A DNA stretch of 64,000 nt from Reichenbachiella agariperforans (GTDB taxonomy: Bacteria; Bacteroidota; Bacteroidia; Cytophagales; Cyclobacteriaceae), in the NCBI RefSeq assembly GCF_900142205.1, contig NZ_FRAA01000002.1, positions 618,282 through 682,281 of the forward strand. Reading direction: 5' to 3'. Positions 9,586 to 43,254 of this stretch are shown in pieces. The position numbers and the translations under genes are program-made. The stretch's first letter is position 1, and each line of letters opens with the position of its first letter. The notes under the pieces were generated by a model. It was not told the DNA's origin, ran no database searches, and saw only the letters and a list, made by a program, of their open reading frames with translations.

Positions 9586-9598
9586 CTAAGAAATAGAA

Positions 9599-9614
9599 TG
9601 CTCCACGTGGAACA
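9599..9614. promoter_or_regulatory. parS-like site between ybeY and mnmG (first)
   Basis: TGCTCCACGTGGAACA is a near-perfect palindrome matching the parS form with C/G flanking the CACGTG core. A second copy lies 46 bases away in the same 89-base intergenic gap. Confidence 0.55.
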
Positions 9615-9644
9615 CTTTACAAACCCTTAGGGTTACAGATGTAA

Positions 9645-9660
9645 CGTTCCACGTGGAACA
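9645..9660. promoter_or_regulatory. parS-like site between ybeY and mnmG (second)
   Basis: CGTTCCACGTGGAACA differs from the neighbouring site at two positions and contains the perfect 14-base palindrome GTTCCACGTGGAAC. Two such palindromes in one short intergenic gap next to mnmG make a chance occurrence unlikely. An E-box-like operator for a regulator of mnmG is the main alternative. Confidence 0.55.
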
Positions 9661-9674
9661 CAATATAGAATACT

Positions 9675-11537
9675 ATGTTTCCAGAATACGATGTAATAGT
9701 AGTAGGTGCAGGTCATGCAGGTTGTGAAGCAGCAGCAGCGGCAGCCAATATGGGTTCGAAAGTCATGCTCATCACGATGAACATGAATACCATAGCACAG
9801 ATGTCATGCAACCCCGCTATGGGCGGAGTTGCCAAAGGTCAGATTGTTCGTGAAATTGATGCATTGGGTGGCTACTCTGGTATCATCTCAGATAAATCAA
9901 TGATACAATTCCGCATGCTCAACAAATCCAAAGGGCCAGCTATGTGGAGTCCACGTACTCAAAACGATCGAATGAGATTCGCAGAAGAATGGAGACTCGC
10001 ACTAGAACGTACACCCAACGTAGACTTCTGGCAAGAAATGGTTACAGGTTTGCTTGTCAAGGATAACAGAATCCAAGGCGTCAGGACTTCCATGGGAATA
10101 GAAATCAAAGGAAAATCAGTCGTGCTTACCAATGGGACATTCCTCAATGGTATCATACACATAGGAGAAAAACGCTTCGGTGGTGGACGAACAGGGGAGA
10201 AGGCTGCAACAGGAATTACTGAACAACTCATAGAACTAGGGTTCGAATCAGGTAGAATGAAAACAGGAACTCCACCACGCGTAGACGGTAGATCACTGAA
10301 CTGGAAAGTCATGGAAGAACAACCCGGTGATGAAGTACCTGGTAAATTCTCCTACTCAGATACTAAACCGCTCAAAGAACAACGACCCTGTCACATCACC
10401 TATACCAACAGTGAGGTACATGAAATCCTGAAGACAGGCTTTGAACAATCACCTATGTTCACTGGTAGAATCAAAGGACTAGGGCCAAGATACTGTCCAT
10501 CCATAGAGGATAAAATTAACCGGTTTGCTGACAGAGAACGTCATCAAATATTCGTAGAACCAGAAGGATGGGATACGGTAGAAATATATGTTAATGGATT
10601 CTCCACCAGTTTACCTGAGGATGTACAGTACAAAGCCATCACCAAAATACCAGGGTTCGAAACGGTAAAGATGTTCAGACCCGGCTATGCCATCGAGTAT
10701 GATTACTTCCCACCTACTCAATTAGACGCTACACTGGAGACTAGACTAATATCAGGACTATACTTCGCTGGGCAGATCAATGGTACCACTGGCTATGAAG
10801 AAGCAGCTAGTCAAGGATTAATGGCAGGAATCAATGCGCATAATAAGATCCACGAAAAAGACGCTTTCATACTTAATCGATCAGATGCCTATATCGGGGT
10901 ACTCATTGATGACCTAATTAACAAAGGTACAAATGAACCCTATCGAATGTTTACCTCCAGAGCAGAGTTTAGAATTCTGCTCAGACAAGACAATGCTGAT
11001 GTAAGGCTTACCCCTTTAGGACATCAGCTCGGTTTAGCATCACAGGATCGATTAGATAAAGTGCATGAAAAGCTATCGCAAACTGAAACTCTTATCAAAG
11101 ACTTGCAAAATCTAAAGGTCAAACCTGAAGAAGTAAATGGTCTACTCGAAGAAAAGAACTCCGCTAAGATCAAAGAGAAAGCGCCCCTGATCAATTTCAT
11201 ACGAAGACCAGAAATGGAAATCGAAGATCTCATTGATCTCAGTGATGAATTGAAAGATAAAACCAAAGGTCTATCATCAGAAATACTCCAACAAGCATCC
11301 ATCCTGATCAAGTATGAAACTTATATAGAGAAAGAAAAAAGTCTTGCTGATAGAATGGGAGATCTGGATAACAAAAAGATTCCCGCAGGTTTCAACTACA
11401 AAGAAATACCCGCCCTCTCAGCAGAAGCCAAAGAAAAACTATCAAACATACAACCCGCCAACTTAGGCCAAGCATCACGCATCAGTGGAGTCAATCCCGC
11501 AGATATATCCGTGCTCATGGTCTACATGGCTAGATAA
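9675..11537 (+). CDS. mnmG: tRNA uridine-5-carboxymethylaminomethyl(34) synthesis enzyme MnmG
   Basis: The 620-residue protein has the usual family length. The FAD dinucleotide-binding motif is at the N-terminus (VVGAGHAGCEAAAAAA), followed by CNPAMGGVAKGQIVREIDAL and PRVDGRS, with the MnmG C-terminal helical domain (NPADISVLMVYM). With MnmE it installs the cmnm5 group on the wobble uridine of certain tRNAs, using FAD, methylene-THF and glycine. mnmG (gidA) is often near the replication origin, and here a likely origin lies about 2.6 kb downstream. The next gene starts two bases after the stop, so it heads a three-gene operon. Confidence 0.97.
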   Translation: MFPEYDVIVVGAGHAGCEAAAAAANMGSKVMLITMNMNTIAQMSCNPAMGGVAKGQIVREIDALGGYSGIISDKSMIQFRMLNKSKGPAMWSPRTQNDRMRFAEEWRLALERTPNVDFWQEMVTGLLVKDNRIQGVRTSMGIEIKGKSVVLTNGTFLNGIIHIGEKRFGGGRTGEKAATGITEQLIELGFESGRMKTGTPPRVDGRSLNWKVMEEQPGDEVPGKFSYSDTKPLKEQRPCHITYTNSEVHEILKTGFEQSPMFTGRIKGLGPRYCPSIEDKINRFADRERHQIFVEPEGWDTVEIYVNGFSTSLPEDVQYKAITKIPGFETVKMFRPGYAIEYDYFPPTQLDATLETRLISGLYFAGQINGTTGYEEAASQGLMAGINAHNKIHEKDAFILNRSDAYIGVLIDDLINKGTNEPYRMFTSRAEFRILLRQDNADVRLTPLGHQLGLASQDRLDKVHEKLSQTETLIKDLQNLKVKPEEVNGLLEEKNSAKIKEKAPLINFIRRPEMEIEDLIDLSDELKDKTKGLSSEILQQASILIKYETYIEKEKSLADRMGDLDNKKIPAGFNYKEIPALSAEAKEKLSNIQPANLGQASRISGVNPADISVLMVYMAR

Positions 11538-11539
11538 CT

Positions 11540-12421
11540 ATGTACGAAAAAATTGATTCATGTCCGTCATGTAACTATCAGGAATTTACCAACCACATCA
11601 TCTGTGACGACCACTCATTGACACACGAGAGTTTCGCCATCATGAAGTGTAAAAACTGTGAACTTTTAATAACAAGTCCACGACCTAGCAAGGGAGCAAT
11701 TGGCAAATACTACCAGTTTGAAGATTATATATCACACACCAACAAAGCAACCAACCCTGTAAACTGGATTTATAAACTAGTTCGTAACCATACCATCAAG
11801 ACAAAGTTCAAACTAATACAAAGCCTATCTGATAAGGAAACAATACTGGACTATGGATGCGGTACCGCCCAACTGCTCAAATATATCAAAGAGCAGGGCT
11901 GGAAAGTAACAGGAATAGAACCGGATCAGAATGCCAGAACTATAGCACAGAAGAATATAGGAGATACAGTATTCGAAAATATCGATAAACTACCTGCTAA
12001 AAAATATGGTATCATCTCACTATGGCATGTATTAGAACACGTACATGACATCAATGAAACACTGCAAGCACTCAAACAACATCTATCCAAAAAGAGCCGT
12101 TTAATAGTCGCAGTACCAAACTCCGCATCTTATGATCAACGCTTCTATAAGAAGCACTGGGCTGCTTACGATGTACCAAGACATCTCTATCATTTCAATC
12201 AAGAGACGATAACGGCACTGATGAAATATAACGGCTATAAGCTCGAAGCAACCCATCCTATGAAATTCGATTCTTTCTATGTGAGCCTTCTGAGTGAAAA
12301 GTACAAAACAGGTCAATCAAATTATTTTAAAGCTTTTTGTATCGGATTGTTATCAAACCGATGGGCCAAAAAGAATAACCACAACTACTCCAGTATTATT
12401 TACATATTCAAAAAAGTATGA
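11540..12421 (+). CDS. Class I SAM-dependent methyltransferase with N-terminal zinc finger
   Basis: A 293-residue protein. Two CxxC pairs near the N-terminus (CPSC at 8-11 and CKNC near 38) look like a zinc ribbon. The SAM-binding motif ILDYGCGTAQLLKYI is near residue 103, with the acidic loop VTGIEPDQ and the post-motif SLWHVLEHVHD. The layout is that of the Methyltransf_23 proteins common in polysaccharide or small-molecule clusters. The substrate is unknown. It sits between mnmG (2-base gap) and the Big_5 lipoprotein (4-base ATGA overlap), so it is in one operon with them, although no functional link is evident. Confidence 0.82.
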   Translation: MYEKIDSCPSCNYQEFTNHIICDDHSLTHESFAIMKCKNCELLITSPRPSKGAIGKYYQFEDYISHTNKATNPVNWIYKLVRNHTIKTKFKLIQSLSDKETILDYGCGTAQLLKYIKEQGWKVTGIEPDQNARTIAQKNIGDTVFENIDKLPAKKYGIISLWHVLEHVHDINETLQALKQHLSKKSRLIVAVPNSASYDQRFYKKHWAAYDVPRHLYHFNQETITALMKYNGYKLEATHPMKFDSFYVSLLSEKYKTGQSNYFKAFCIGLLSNRWAKKNNHNYSSIIYIFKKV

Positions 12422-14160
12422 AACATATATTTCCCTTCGTCATTATCCTCATCGCCATATTCGTATATGCCTGTGCTAATCAAGGTACGCCTTCAGGAGG
12501 ACCTAGGGATACCATACCACCGCTACTTTTAGAAAGTAATCCCACAGACAAGACAATCAATTTCGATGGAAAAGAATTCTCCTTTGAATTCAACGAAAGA
12601 ATCAATGCGGATAAACTGAAACAAAAATTAATCATCACACCATTCACTGAGAACCCCTACAAATTCAAAGTGAAAAAGAACGACTTGTATATTGAATTCG
12701 AAGAAAAATTCGAAGACAGTACTACTTATACTTTCAATTTCGCCGATGGGGTAGTGGATGTAACAGAAAAAAATCCTGTAGAAAACTTTAGCATAGCATT
12801 CTCAACTGGTCCATTCTTGGATTCTATTAGTATTTCAGGACGTATTACCAACCTGTACACCAATGAGAACATAGACAAAGCCACCATTGCTGTTTACTCA
12901 ATCAAAGACACGCTGGACATACTTACAGGAAAGCCTCGATACTTTGCACAAACAGACACTTCAGGAACCTACCGAATCGAAAACATCAAAAATGGCTATT
13001 ATAAAATTTACGCATTCGAAGATGCCAACAACAATCTCAAATGCGAACCAGATGAAGAGTCACATGGATTTATACAAGATTCTGTAAACCTCAATACGAG
13101 CCAGGAGAATTTAGATATCAAAATACAGCTACTCAACATTACTCCCCTCAAAATGGTCAGATCCAAAAAAACAGGCCAGTACTTCGATGTACTCTACAAC
13201 AAATACATTGAGAATTATAAAATCAAAAAAGCCGATTCTACTAACCAATTAGATATTCCAATCAATAACATAATAAAAGGCAGAACGACACTACGCTTCT
13301 ACTACGACTCTCTCTATACCTATGATACAGATAGTTTGCAGCTCATCATATCTGCACAGGATACAGTGTACAATCAGATTCAAGACACAGTCTATATACA
13401 GTTCTCTGAGAGCAAAAGAAAACCTGAAAAACTAAACAGCAGTCTATTACCAACAGACAAATCCAATATTGATCCAACCTTCAATATGACTTTTAGCTTC
13501 ACTAAACCTATCACTCAATTCACAATAGATAGTATGACGTATCAATATGATACACTGTATAAATATACATTCGTAGATAGTGTTGCCACATGGAATGAAA
13601 ACAGAACAGAACTAACCCTAATCAACACGCTAGACAAATACTTCCTACAGCAGCAAGTAGATAGTCTCAGAAATACACTCATTGATACGACACAGCTCGT
13701 ATCAGACAGCATCGCATTAGACTCTATCACACAGTTCAAAGTCAACTATCTGAATAAGATTAAGACCGAGCAAGTCTACATGAATTTTCCACATGGAACA
13801 TTCATCACCATAGATCAAGATACCGTCGAACAATTCACCAGATTCTATTCCTTCAAAGATTCAGAAAACTTCGGAAAAGTATCTGGACAAGTCACAACAC
13901 AAGTGCCACAATACATACTGCAACTAGTCAATGACAAATACAAGGTTATTTCTGAACTACAGAATGCCAAGACTTTCACATTTAGCTATATAAAACCAGG
14001 CAAGTACACCTTTCGCATTCTGATAGATGACAATCAGGATGGAGCATGGGAACACGGCAGTATGTTGCAAAATCAACAGGAAGAATCCATTTATTTCTAT
14101 CCTGAACTATTCGATATACGTGCCAACTGGGAGATTGAAAATATAGAGATCACCTTCTAA
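12418..14160 (+). CDS. Lipoprotein with N-terminal Ig-like (Big_5) domain
   Basis: A 580-residue protein with signal peptide and lipobox YAC (Cys19). PPLLLESNPTDKTINFDGK followed by FSFEFNERI is the typical start of a Big_5 bacterial Ig-like domain, and a carboxypeptidase-regulatory-like beta domain follows (SGTYRIENIKNGYYKIYAFED). The C-terminal part has a second copy of the latter type (KPGKYTFRILIDDNQDGAWEHG). Proteins with this layout are very common in Bacteroidota, usually one per genome, with no known function. It overlaps the methyltransferase gene by four bases and is the last gene before the proposed origin. Confidence 0.82.
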   Translation: MKHIFPFVIILIAIFVYACANQGTPSGGPRDTIPPLLLESNPTDKTINFDGKEFSFEFNERINADKLKQKLIITPFTENPYKFKVKKNDLYIEFEEKFEDSTTYTFNFADGVVDVTEKNPVENFSIAFSTGPFLDSISISGRITNLYTNENIDKATIAVYSIKDTLDILTGKPRYFAQTDTSGTYRIENIKNGYYKIYAFEDANNNLKCEPDEESHGFIQDSVNLNTSQENLDIKIQLLNITPLKMVRSKKTGQYFDVLYNKYIENYKIKKADSTNQLDIPINNIIKGRTTLRFYYDSLYTYDTDSLQLIISAQDTVYNQIQDTVYIQFSESKRKPEKLNSSLLPTDKSNIDPTFNMTFSFTKPITQFTIDSMTYQYDTLYKYTFVDSVATWNENRTELTLINTLDKYFLQQQVDSLRNTLIDTTQLVSDSIALDSITQFKVNYLNKIKTEQVYMNFPHGTFITIDQDTVEQFTRFYSFKDSENFGKVSGQVTTQVPQYILQLVNDKYKVISELQNAKTFTFSYIKPGKYTFRILIDDNQDGAWEHGSMLQNQQEESIYFYPELFDIRANWEIENIEITF

Positions 14161-14542
14161 AACCTGTGGATAACTCGTGAAACCAGATGATAAAACCTGT
14201 GTACAAAAACCAATTAATCTTTGACACTTATGACAGGGTAACAATCCACATGAAACATTGAAAGTTCACTTGATCATATCCACAAAAGTCATCAAACGAT
14301 CAACATCACAATAAAGTAATCAACAAACTAACCAAAACTGTGGAAAACGTTATGAAAGACTAAACCTCAATGACTTACGATGTAGATAACATGTCGCTTA
14401 ACAATGAATATTAAACCAACAATAAACAACACATTCAAAAACGAGCACTTATCCACATATCCACGGAGGTAATAAATAATAATAGTTTATTTATAATCTA
14501 TTTATATATTGTAAGAGCGCAGAAAAGTGTGGACAAACGCAT
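14161..14542. other. Proposed chromosomal replication origin (oriC)
   Basis: This 382-base gene-free stretch contains two perfect DnaA boxes TTATCCACA, at 14165-14173 (- strand) and 14449-14457 (+ strand). Three boxes have one mismatch: 14276-14284 (+), 14339-14347 (-) and 14528-14536 (-). Weaker ones lie at 14198, 14242 and 14457. A 43-base tract of almost pure A/T (14471-14513) sits between the last two strong boxes and is a candidate unwinding element. mnmG and parS-like palindromes are close by, and G/C bias of the + strand appears to differ on the two sides. The absence of dnaA nearby is normal in many Bacteroidota. Confidence 0.75.
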
Positions 14543-16354
14543 ATGAAAAAATTCTTATCCATATTAGCCTTGATCATTCCGCTCACACTGGTGGCCCAGG
14601 ATGATCAGAATATCCAACTTGCCAATGAGTATTATCTCAATGGCGATTATGAGAAAGCAAAAGATCTATACGATGAGCTGGCCAAGTCATCGCAGAATAT
14701 TCCTAATATTCACAACAACTATCTGGATGTACTCCTATCACTCAATGATTACAAGGCTGCAGAGAAATATCTAAAAGTTGCGCTCAAGAGTTACCCATCG
14801 AACGTCTACTACCAAATCGATGAAGGAATCCTCTATACCACTACCGATCGCAACGATCAGGCTGATAAGAAGTACAAGATGTTGATAACTGAGATAAAAG
14901 AAAACGGATTTTTGGTGCGGACTGCTGCGCAGTATTTTATCAGCAAACAACTGGCCAATTATGCACTCGATACCTATATCGCTGGGAGACAGAGTTCTCG
15001 AAACAAACAGGATTATGCACTAGAGCTGGCCAACACCTATCGTGTGCTTGGCAAAAAAGAAGAGATGCTAAATGAATATCTCGTCTTCGCTTCGCTCAGA
15101 CCACAAAACCTAAGGTACGTCAAGAACATCCTTCAAAACTTACTACAAAGCGAAGAAGATATTCAGTATTTTCAAAATACTCTACTCGACAACATTCAGA
15201 AAAATCCAAGTGACAAAATGTATGCGGATCTTTTGATTTGGGCACATGTGCAACAAAAAGATTTTCATGGTGCGTTCATTCAAGCACGAGCAATCAATAA
15301 GCGGATGAACGAAAATGGCTATCGACTCATCAACATCGGTGAGATCGCATTGAAAAATGAAAGCTATGCGGATGCCGAAGAGATATTCACATACATCGTG
15401 GATAAGTTACCAGAGAGTCAGTACAACCTCCAAGCCCAAAAAGAACTCATACTTGCTCGACAAGAAAAAGTGAAACGAACTTTCCCTGTTGACAAAACAG
15501 CAATCCGTCAGTTAACCCATGACTATCATCATTTAATGACGAGAGTGGGTTTGAATCAAGAAACAATAGAGGCATATCGCCAAAAAGCATTGTTACATGC
15601 TTTTTATCTTGATGAAAAAGATTCAGCCATTCAAATCCTCAATGAAATCATAAGTATTCCACGTGTAAACGAAAAAATCAAATCATTGAGTAAGTTGGAT
15701 TTGGGAGATATTTACCTACTGATAGATCAACCATGGGAGTCTACACTACTCTACGCACAAGTCGAAAAAGCCAACAAATCAAGCAAAATAGGATATGAAG
15801 CAAAATTCAAAAATGCTAGGCTAAACTACTATATGGGAAATTTTGAATTGGCGAAGAGTCATTTGGATATTCTCAAAACCGCTACGACCAAAGAAATCGC
15901 TAACGATGCGATAGCGTTGAGTTTGCTCATTCAAAACAACACAGCGCTGGATACCTCTGACTTTGTCTTGAAGAAATATGCAGATATTGATCTGCTCATG
16001 TTCCAACACAAAACCGCTCAGGCCAAAAGGGCCTATCAACAAATGCTCGAGGATTATCCAGCACATTCGCTAGTCGATGAGATTCACTGGCAGCTTGCAC
16101 AGATTTATTTGAGTTCAGGAGAGTTTGACAATTCCATTTTGCAACTCGAAGTGATTCAGCTCAATTATGCTACTGATTTGTTCGGTGATGATGCGTCCTT
16201 CTTGGAGGGAAAAATTTTAGAAGAATATCTGATGGATAAGGAAGGGGCTATGGAAGTCTACAAAAATTTCTTGAGCGACTATCCCGGTAGTATCTATGTA
16301 TCAGATGCACGAAAGCGTTTTCGAAAGTTGCGCGGCGATAGCGTCTACCAATAA
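14543..16354 (+). CDS. Secreted tetratricopeptide-repeat protein
   Basis: A 603-residue protein with signal peptide MKKFLSILALIIPLTLVAQ and no lipobox. The mature part is all helical, with recognisable TPR units at both ends: AEYYLNGDYEKAKDLYDEL-like near residue 30, DYKAAEKYLKVALKSYP near 75, and HWQLAQIYLSSGEFDNSILQLEVI near 510. It ends in a YfiO/BamD-like stretch (FLEGKILEEYLMDKEGAMEVY). TPR proteins of this type act as periplasmic scaffolds; the partner is unknown. It begins next to the proposed origin, the most distal DnaA box being 7 bases before its ATG. Confidence 0.82.
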   Translation: MKKFLSILALIIPLTLVAQDDQNIQLANEYYLNGDYEKAKDLYDELAKSSQNIPNIHNNYLDVLLSLNDYKAAEKYLKVALKSYPSNVYYQIDEGILYTTTDRNDQADKKYKMLITEIKENGFLVRTAAQYFISKQLANYALDTYIAGRQSSRNKQDYALELANTYRVLGKKEEMLNEYLVFASLRPQNLRYVKNILQNLLQSEEDIQYFQNTLLDNIQKNPSDKMYADLLIWAHVQQKDFHGAFIQARAINKRMNENGYRLINIGEIALKNESYADAEEIFTYIVDKLPESQYNLQAQKELILARQEKVKRTFPVDKTAIRQLTHDYHHLMTRVGLNQETIEAYRQKALLHAFYLDEKDSAIQILNEIISIPRVNEKIKSLSKLDLGDIYLLIDQPWESTLLYAQVEKANKSSKIGYEAKFKNARLNYYMGNFELAKSHLDILKTATTKEIANDAIALSLLIQNNTALDTSDFVLKKYADIDLLMFQHKTAQAKRAYQQMLEDYPAHSLVDEIHWQLAQIYLSSGEFDNSILQLEVIQLNYATDLFGDDASFLEGKILEEYLMDKEGAMEVYKNFLSDYPGSIYVSDARKRFRKLRGDSVYQ

Positions 16355-42045: not shown

Positions 42046-43254
42046 ATGCCTACCAAAAAATTAACCTTTCAAAATACTGAAGGTCATGAGCTGTCTGCTC
42101 ATCTCGAATTGCCGATCGATGCGCACCCGATCGCTTATGCGATTTTTGCCCATTGTTTCACTTGTAACAAGAACTTTCATGCCGTACGACATATCAGTGA
42201 AGCCTTGACGCATCAGGGCATAGCTGTACTTAGTTTTGATTTTACGGGATTGGGTCAGAGTGAAGGAGATTTTTCGGATACCAATTTTAGCTCCAATGTT
42301 GAGGACTTAGTGGCTGCAGCCAAAGCCTTGACGGATGCGTACGAAGCACCGAGATTGCTGATCGGCCACTCACTCGGCGGAGCAGCGGTGATTTTCGCTG
42401 GGCGACAGATCAAGAGTGTGGAAGCGGTCGCGACTGTAGGAGCCCCCTCTTCGCCAGCGCATGTGAGTCACCTGATACAGGGAGATATCGAAAAAATCAA
42501 AAACCAAGATGCCGCGGAGGTATCCATAGGCGGCAGAACCTTCAATGTCAAAAAACAATTTCTCGAAGATATAAGTAGTCAAAACATGCCAGAGATAGTG
42601 CGTGAGCTCAAAGAGGCGCTCTTGATTATGCATTCTCCTCAGGATGAGATCGTAGACATTAATCATGCGGCTAAGCTGTACGAGTATGCCATGCACCCGA
42701 AGAGCTTTGTGTCTCTCGATGGAGCGGATCACTTGCTTACGAGCGAAGGAGACTCACGCTATGCTGGAGATGTGATTGCCACATGGGCCAAGCGCTATCT
42801 CCCTAAAGTTGCTCCGATACAGCTCAAAACCAAACAACAGGTTGTAGTACAGATCGGGAGTGAGGGTTATGTATCAGAGATATTGGCAGGCAAGCACAGG
42901 TTGAGAGCGGATGAGCCACAAGATGTCGGGGGCAATGATTTTGGGCCGTCTCCTTACGAGCTGCTATTGTCAGGGCTGGGAGCTTGTACTGCGATGACGA
43001 TTCGTATGTACGCGGACCGAAAGGGTTGGGGTCTAGACAATGTCCATGTGCACCTTAGTCATAAGAAAGACTATGCGAAAGACTGTCAAGAATGTGATGA
43101 CAAATCCAAAATAGATGTAATTGACCGAACCATCAAGATAGAAGGGGATTTGGACGATGCGCAGAAGAAACGATTGCTAGAGATAGCAAACAAGTGTCCA
43201 GTGCACCGAACACTCCATAGCCAAGTGGAGGTCAATACCTCGCTGACCGACTGA
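42046..43254 (+). CDS. Alpha/beta hydrolase fused to OsmC domain
   Basis: A 402-residue bifunctional protein. Residues 1-260 are an alpha/beta hydrolase with nucleophile elbow LLIGHSLGGAAVIF and C-terminal catalytic His in SLDGADHLL. Residues 270-400 are an OsmC-like peroxiredoxin domain with redox cysteines in LLSGLGACTAMTIRMYADR and IANKCPVHRTLHS. Both active sites are complete. This fusion occurs in several bacteria and may detoxify organic or lipid hydroperoxides, with the hydrolase releasing the substrate; this is inference. A 3' fragment homologous to this gene lies 7.5 kb away, at 50.7 kb. Confidence 0.88.
   Translation: MPTKKLTFQNTEGHELSAHLELPIDAHPIAYAIFAHCFTCNKNFHAVRHISEALTHQGIAVLSFDFTGLGQSEGDFSDTNFSSNVEDLVAAAKALTDAYEAPRLLIGHSLGGAAVIFAGRQIKSVEAVATVGAPSSPAHVSHLIQGDIEKIKNQDAAEVSIGGRTFNVKKQFLEDISSQNMPEIVRELKEALLIMHSPQDEIVDINHAAKLYEYAMHPKSFVSLDGADHLLTSEGDSRYAGDVIATWAKRYLPKVAPIQLKTKQQVVVQIGSEGYVSEILAGKHRLRADEPQDVGGNDFGPSPYELLLSGLGACTAMTIRMYADRKGWGLDNVHVHLSHKKDYAKDCQECDDKSKIDVIDRTIKIEGDLDDAQKKRLLEIANKCPVHRTLHSQVEVNTSLTD

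Follow-up and report, generated by a model that had tools for sequence, protein, structure and literature searches.

A probable chromosomal replication origin beside a TPR protein gene in Reichenbachiella agariperforans

A gene-free gap with clustered DnaA boxes

The window, a stretch of 64,000 nucleotides (G000:C11:618282-682281) from the 5,034,103-base, 21-contig genome of Reichenbachiella agariperforans, contains a 382-base gap between the gene of an Ig-like-domain protein, which ends at 14160, and that of a TPR protein (Table 1). A sequence-only reading of this DNA had described the gap as gene-free and as a replication origin with the TPR gene at its edge. The arrangement of the locus agreed with this description: the TPR gene starts at 14543, directly after the gap, and the longest stop-free stretch within the gap, on either strand, was 42 codons. 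The same reading had counted two perfect DnaA boxes and three with a single mismatch. Both perfect boxes were recovered; the boxes with one mismatch numbered four. The tract at 14471-14513, reported as nearly pure A/T, was found to be so, and it is the most A/T-rich 43-mer of the window, tied only by the two 43-mers shifted by a single base in either direction.

Table 1 Features of the putative origin region, in window coordinates
Feature	Position	Strand	Remark
parS-like site	9599..9614		one mismatch to TGTTCCACGTGGAACA
parS-like site	9645..9660		one mismatch to TGTTCCACGTGGAACA
mnmG (gidA)	9675..11537	+	just downstream of the parS-like pair
Ig-like-domain protein gene	12418..14160	+	left neighbour
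Probable oriC region, gene-free	14161..14542		32% G+C, against 42% in the window
DnaA box, perfect (TTATCCACA)	14165..14173	-	9/9 columns invariant in 8 genus genomes
DnaA box, one mismatch (ATATCCACA)	14276..14284	+	retained, to within one mismatch, in only part of the genus
DnaA box, one mismatch	14339..14347	-	matched in 7/8 genus genomes
DnaA box, one mismatch	14381..14389	-	matched in 8/8 genus genomes
DnaA box, perfect (TTATCCACA), beside A/T tract	14449..14457	+	8/8 genus genomes; first box of the putative unwinding module
Weaker second DnaA box (ATATCCACG)	14457..14465	+	two mismatches; one-base overlap with the first box
Putative DnaA-trios AAT AAA TAA TAA TAG	14471..14485	+	12/15 columns invariant in genus
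A/T tract, putative DNA unwinding element	14471..14513		40/43 A/T
DnaA box, one mismatch	14528..14536	-	6 bases before TPR start; 8/9 columns invariant in genus
TPR protein gene	14543..16354	+	right neighbour; anchor for orthologous gaps

The 382 bases contained six DnaA boxes when one mismatch was tolerated (the two perfect and the four imperfect ones), against 0.109 expected from shuffles of the window, which averaged 18.25 such boxes per 64 kb; the Poisson probability was about 2e-9 for this stretch taken singly. The whole window held 26 boxes against the 18.25 expected, a small excess that was reached in 4 of 100 shuffles. It is the cluster at 14161-14542, not the window-wide number of boxes, that stands out. 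The pattern used is the E. coli box, which may differ from that of the Reichenbachiella DnaA. At least four such boxes in 382 bases occurred only in this gap among the 324 kb scanned of the 5.03-Mb genome; an equal density at other places, proposed beforehand as a check on the origin claim, was absent from the rest of the scanned sequence. Perfect boxes were not enriched genome-wide (38, compared with 67 for the reversed pattern), and the only other group among these 38 with two or more inside 400 bases lies at C21:50853-50955.

Beside the A/T tract, the rule for a basal unwinding system (BUS) given in PMC8287927 (a box with at most two mismatches, a spacer of at most 16 bases and at least three NAN trios) was applied by eye, and the segment 14449-14485 was found to hold a perfect box, a 13-base spacer containing the weaker box, five NAN trios and then the A/T tract. 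According to the cited passages of that paper, a BUS composed of DnaA boxes, a spacer and DnaA-trios has been shown in B. subtilis and is predicted for most bacterial origins, 13 bases being the commonest spacer length. The putative Reichenbachiella module is like the system described in those passages in all of these parts and differs from it in not adjoining dnaA. Because the BUS rule is permissive in A/T-rich DNA, the reading of this segment as a module rests on conservation in place. The best conserved 30-base segments of the gap start at 14455, 14459 and 14470, each having 20 of its 30 columns identical in all eight genomes, against a mean of 27% across the gap. Candidate modules on the plus strand of the last 600 bases, each headed by a box with no more than one mismatch, were also ranked by trio number, a simpler procedure than the PMC8287927 program. 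The box equivalent to 14449 ranked first in all seven congeners, five with a 13-base spacer and five trios and two with a 16-base spacer and four trios; in the window's own sequence, the box at 14276, with seven trios, came first, not the one at 14449.

Conservation in relatives, parS-like sites and the location of dnaA

Orthologous gaps were located using the TPR orthologue as an anchor. In every one of the eight genus genomes, our own included, between 5 and 8 boxes lay within 700 bases upstream of the TPR gene. Four box positions, about 376-389, 162, 94 and 15 bases ahead of the start of that gene, were common to all eight, and a fifth at about 204 was found in seven; those of G007 are shifted by about 10, its TPR match beginning at residue 7. 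In a wider search, 38 of 39 genomes gave a match to the TPR protein, and the best 30 loci were retained. One was cut by a contig end, and the other 29 had at least three boxes in 25 cases, two in one and none in three. A larger set comprised 78 loci, namely the best 80 of at least 539 matching loci minus two with too little upstream sequence; it shares some genomes with the 30-locus set (L017 and L154, for example). At 61 of these 78 loci, three or more boxes stood within 600 bases upstream of the TPR orthologue; of 1704 control windows taken from these loci, a single one had as many.

Fewer than three boxes were found at 17 of the 78 loci (again within the best 80 of at least 539), 13 of them from Hymenobacteraceae and the others being L193, L208, L211 and L216. 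In the Hymenobacteraceae (Adhaeribacter, Pontibacter and Botryobacter; loci L202, L203, L209, L217, L218, L220, L222, L224, L225, L226, L231, L232 and L233), the box cluster before the TPR gene was absent from 13 of 13 loci, each with 0 or 1 box, and the upstream sequence examined at these 13 contained no parS-like site. This family has either a relocated origin or an altered box.

In a class-wide search, the TPR protein was matched in 107 of 119 genomes and the best 30 loci were taken, of which the 29 besides our own were scanned. L237, from the same order, had no boxes and L238, from the same family, had three; the remaining 27 gaps, all from other orders within the class, never had three or more boxes before the TPR match. 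The place beside the TPR gene is therefore not class-wide. Box counts across the genus, order and class loci suggest that an origin on the TPR side is ancient in much of the Cytophagales, and is not a feature of the class.

In the Cytophagales metagenome-assembled genome (MAG) UBA2561 (L197, positions 1-810; DDLX01000031.1), 20 perfect boxes on both strands occupy the 600 bases before the TPR gene, an extreme, origin-like cluster. A MAG labelled Chitinophaga (L230), a label that may be wrong, had 3 boxes and three parS-like sites.

The genome was searched with the 16-base palindrome TGTTCCACGTGGAACA, which we take to be the parS consensus. With one mismatch allowed, four palindromic parS-like sites were found in the whole genome and none with the control pattern. 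Two of the four (9599 and 9645) lie between ybeY and mnmG; the third is at window position 42154, with three mismatches to the second pattern form used, and the fourth is on C18. When 20 stretches were searched in each of G001, G002 and G006, parS-like sites with at most one mismatch occurred only in the stretch beside the gap, and G028 and G033 gave the same result, again over 20 stretches each, when up to two mismatches were tolerated. Among the 68 loci with about 8 kb of upstream sequence (from the best 80 of at least 539), a parS-like site lay 2.5-8 kb ahead of the TPR gene at 45, and 23 had none in this zone. The site stood at 4.8-5.1 kb upstream in 35 of the 68, 32 had two or more, and the downstream zone held one at a single locus. 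A single ParB_N match was present in the genome, at C8:98745. An ori-proximal parS is recognised by 16-base palindromes close to the consensus in the vicinity of the origin, together with a gene for ParB; both features were found, and the 9599/9645 pair represents likely partition sites beside the origin and putative ParB targets. This evidence is independent of the DnaA boxes and is an addition to the original finding. A weaker parS-like palindrome (13785-13800, two mismatches) near the end of the Ig-like-domain gene overlaps a one-mismatch DnaA box (13785-13793).

An origin away from dnaA had been anticipated, and this was borne out: the single Bac_DnaA match in the genome lies on contig C20, and the window is part of C11. 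In all eight relatives checked (by hand, treating contigs as circles), a distance of 0.76 to 2.8 Mb separated the best dnaA match from the orthologous gap. The cited passage of PMC4755523 likewise describes the oriC of Bacteroidetes as commonly distant from dnaA. Three extra matches to the Bac_DnaA model in G019 (C1:2591131, 3013256 and 4580529; 27.2 bits each, cut-off 23; 243-codon frames) are perhaps a repeated mobile-element ATPase.

GC skew and the placement of the origin

The cumulative GC skew, the minimum of which had been set beforehand as a refutation test for the origin claim, dropped over C11:478282-703057 to a point close by, at window position 16068, and then climbed. This minimum is 1.5 kb inside the TPR gene and outside the gap. 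All nine samples to the left of the window on its own contig, including two from the far left of C11, were negative (-0.07 to -0.14). Within the window, the two 8-kb pieces up to 16 kb were negative; the six pieces that follow, and L047, were positive.

In the one-contig congener G002 (20 samples), the first 7 samples, to 1,228,000, were negative, the next 9 positive (+0.05 to +0.11) and the last 3 negative. The flip from -0.076 at 1,208,001-1,228,000 to +0.056 at 1,228,001-1,248,000 occurs at the site of the orthologous gap, which starts at 1,228,230, and the local minimum was at 1,226,696. A second sign change was found near the antipode (3.63 Mb), the value falling from +0.021 at 3.61 Mb to -0.024 at 4.01 Mb. 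When two neighbouring 20-kb stretches were joined, the minimum of G001 (1,323,449) and that of G006 (311,021) both lay in the TPR gene, at under 1 kb from the gap. The wider skew of G001 was untidy, turning negative again in samples about 75 kb (1.40 Mb) and 250 kb (1.58 Mb) rightward; that of G006 stayed within about 0.03 of zero over 260-510 kb and was mixed further left. In G028 and G033, which belong to other families, the sampled skew was uninformative or locally reversed. Based on these patterns, support from skew over the six genomes was strong in two, local in two and absent in two.

The boxes might instead form a DnaA-regulated promoter or a DnaA-titrating cluster before the TPR gene, the origin lying elsewhere, an explanation that we regard as very improbable. 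The skew switch is located at the 14161-14542 region and a parS-like pair was found near it, both of which argue against such a role, even though 6 bases separate the last box from the TPR start codon and DnaA may for that reason affect expression of this gene. Clusters away from the origin do exist in this genome, as illustrated by C21:50853-50955, with three perfect boxes in 103 bases; however, the skew has the same sign in both halves of the 20-kb stretch around that cluster (-0.14 and -0.13), and also on both sides of a looser pair of perfect boxes 1 kb apart at C14:107619 and 108646 (+0.16 and +0.14). Because each of these groups lies in a 20-kb stretch of a single skew sign, both were rejected as rival origins. 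An origin close by but at another spot, either the parS-bearing gap at 9586-9674 or the interior of the TPR gene at the skew minimum, is less credible still: the cumulative minimum at 16068 and a single-kilobase skew that is uneven from 8 to 16 kb would accommodate it, whereas four boxes in 382 bases were seen nowhere else in the 324 kb scanned, and the boxes of the gap hold their position across the genus while the intervening sequence has changed.

Collectively, the skew, the box cluster, the A/T tract and conservation in relatives support the original claim, and the gap at 14161-14542 is very probably the chromosomal replication origin (oriC) of this Reichenbachiella, a member of the Cytophagales. 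The boxes, the A/T tract, the skew switch, the conservation, the parS-like pair and the single DnaA and ParB_N matches were all directly seen; we infer each of the steps of DnaA and ParB binding, melting and loading that would make the gap work. According to this proposal, the six boxes would be bound by DnaA, which would be guided from the perfect box at 14449 and the overlapping weaker box onto the single-stranded trios at 14471-14485 and would melt the adjoining A/T tract. Helicases could then be loaded at the melted tract, and two forks would depart in opposite directions. ParB loaded onto the parS-like pair, 4.5 kb leftward, would serve to separate the newly copied origins.

A site at which chromosome copying begins is required in every bacterium, and the gap, as oriC, is a further example of an already known type of site. 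The oriC of E. coli does not adjoin dnaA, and Cytophaga is a genus of the Cytophagales. Plasmids bearing oriC are in use in Cytophaga hutchinsonii (PMC7906972, PMC5288383); the cited passages give no locus, and the likeness is one of order and plasmid use only. The Y. pestis oriC lies between gidA and mioC, like that of E. coli, in the cited passage of PMC10225481. The Reichenbachiella gap shares with this E. coli-type origin its closeness to mnmG (gidA), and differs in that mnmG ends 2.6 kb off, with two genes between, and in its flanking genes. The predicted oriC of Prevotella intermedia OMA14, as presented in the cited part of PMC4755523, is similar in belonging to the Bacteroidota, in having multiple DnaA boxes at a skew transition and in the absence of dnaA nearby; in contrast, other orders of the class were without a cluster before the TPR match in 27 of 27 sampled genomes. 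The passages cited from PMC2768785 and PMC3534657 report, respectively, a Blattabacterium without an origin recognisable by DnaA boxes and a Melioribacter origin between dnaA and dnaN. A search of titles and abstract openings found no literature on this locus, and none was found on Reichenbachiella together with 'origin of replication'; DoriC, which was outside the search, may hold predictions for the genus.

A three-box element away from the origin

The C21:50853-50955 cluster (L049 9853-9955), outside the window, has its three perfect boxes in the order +, -, -, with a TlpA-like gene downstream and a ClC-type channel gene upstream (named by eye from the translations). Genomes of the genus and of other families preserve the spacing of boxes of this type. 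Judged by sequence comparison, the cluster is not a chance grouping. Upstream of the TlpA-like gene, the 20 best loci from 29 genomes searched had at least three boxes in 500 bases in 13 cases, two in one and none in six. A degenerate pattern of the layout matched in 32 of 194 genomes of the order, some of the matches being dense, origin-like clusters, and its reversed control gave 0.

The +, -, - triple was found by script in 45 of 52 loci, at spacings slightly wider than the pattern. These 45 yielded 29 spacers after removal of 4 duplicates, of 9 of the 10 with boxes inside the spacer (L297 was kept), and of L302, L304 and L305. The last three are probably origins, since TPR-like and Ig-like genes (identified by eye) stand at L302 and L305, and L304 resembles L302. 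The best IHF-consensus match on the plus strand fell 18-21 bases before the second box in 11.5 of the 29 spacers with ties shared, or 19 of 29 with ties counted in full, compared with an average of 1.1 and a maximum of 3.95 at the same position in 300 shuffles; this figure overstates the case, because the motif was noticed before the test, the range of positions was chosen after viewing and the sequences are related. Over the 29 pooled spacers, the layout is one of boxes flanking an IHF-like site. The IHF match is weak in the window's genus, at 6 or 7 of 9 positions (6 of 9 in our own spacer). In the six measurable genomes, the element was 184 to 883 kb from the origin.

The E. coli datA locus depends on two DnaA boxes, an IHF site and their spacing (cited passages of PMC4585315). 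The C21 element resembles it in layout, with boxes on either side of a putative IHF-like site that is a weak match in our own genome; a datA-type element would in addition promote the hydrolysis of ATP carried by DnaA. No paper on datA/DARS-type control of DnaA in Bacteroidetes was found in the literature searched, and the main text of PMC12371093, on DnaA titration in E. coli, contains no word beginning with Bacteroid-. By analogy with E. coli, we tentatively suggest, with rather less than even confidence, that the origin may be half of a Cytophagales initiation-control circuit, in which the off-origin element (one box, a 65-72-base spacer with an IHF-like site at a preferred position, and two opposite boxes) would act like datA/DARS, switching or titrating DnaA after each initiation.

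The clear anatomy of the origin, the parS-like pair, the lack of a cluster in Hymenobacteraceae and the off-origin element add to the interest of the locus. With its position backed by skew, genus-fixed boxes and parS-like sites, the origin would provide a small, clonable piece of DNA for replicating plasmids, and the cloned piece would allow the box-spacer-trio melting model to be tested outside the usual model organisms. The C21 element, if active, would be a lead to datA/DARS-type control in Bacteroidota.
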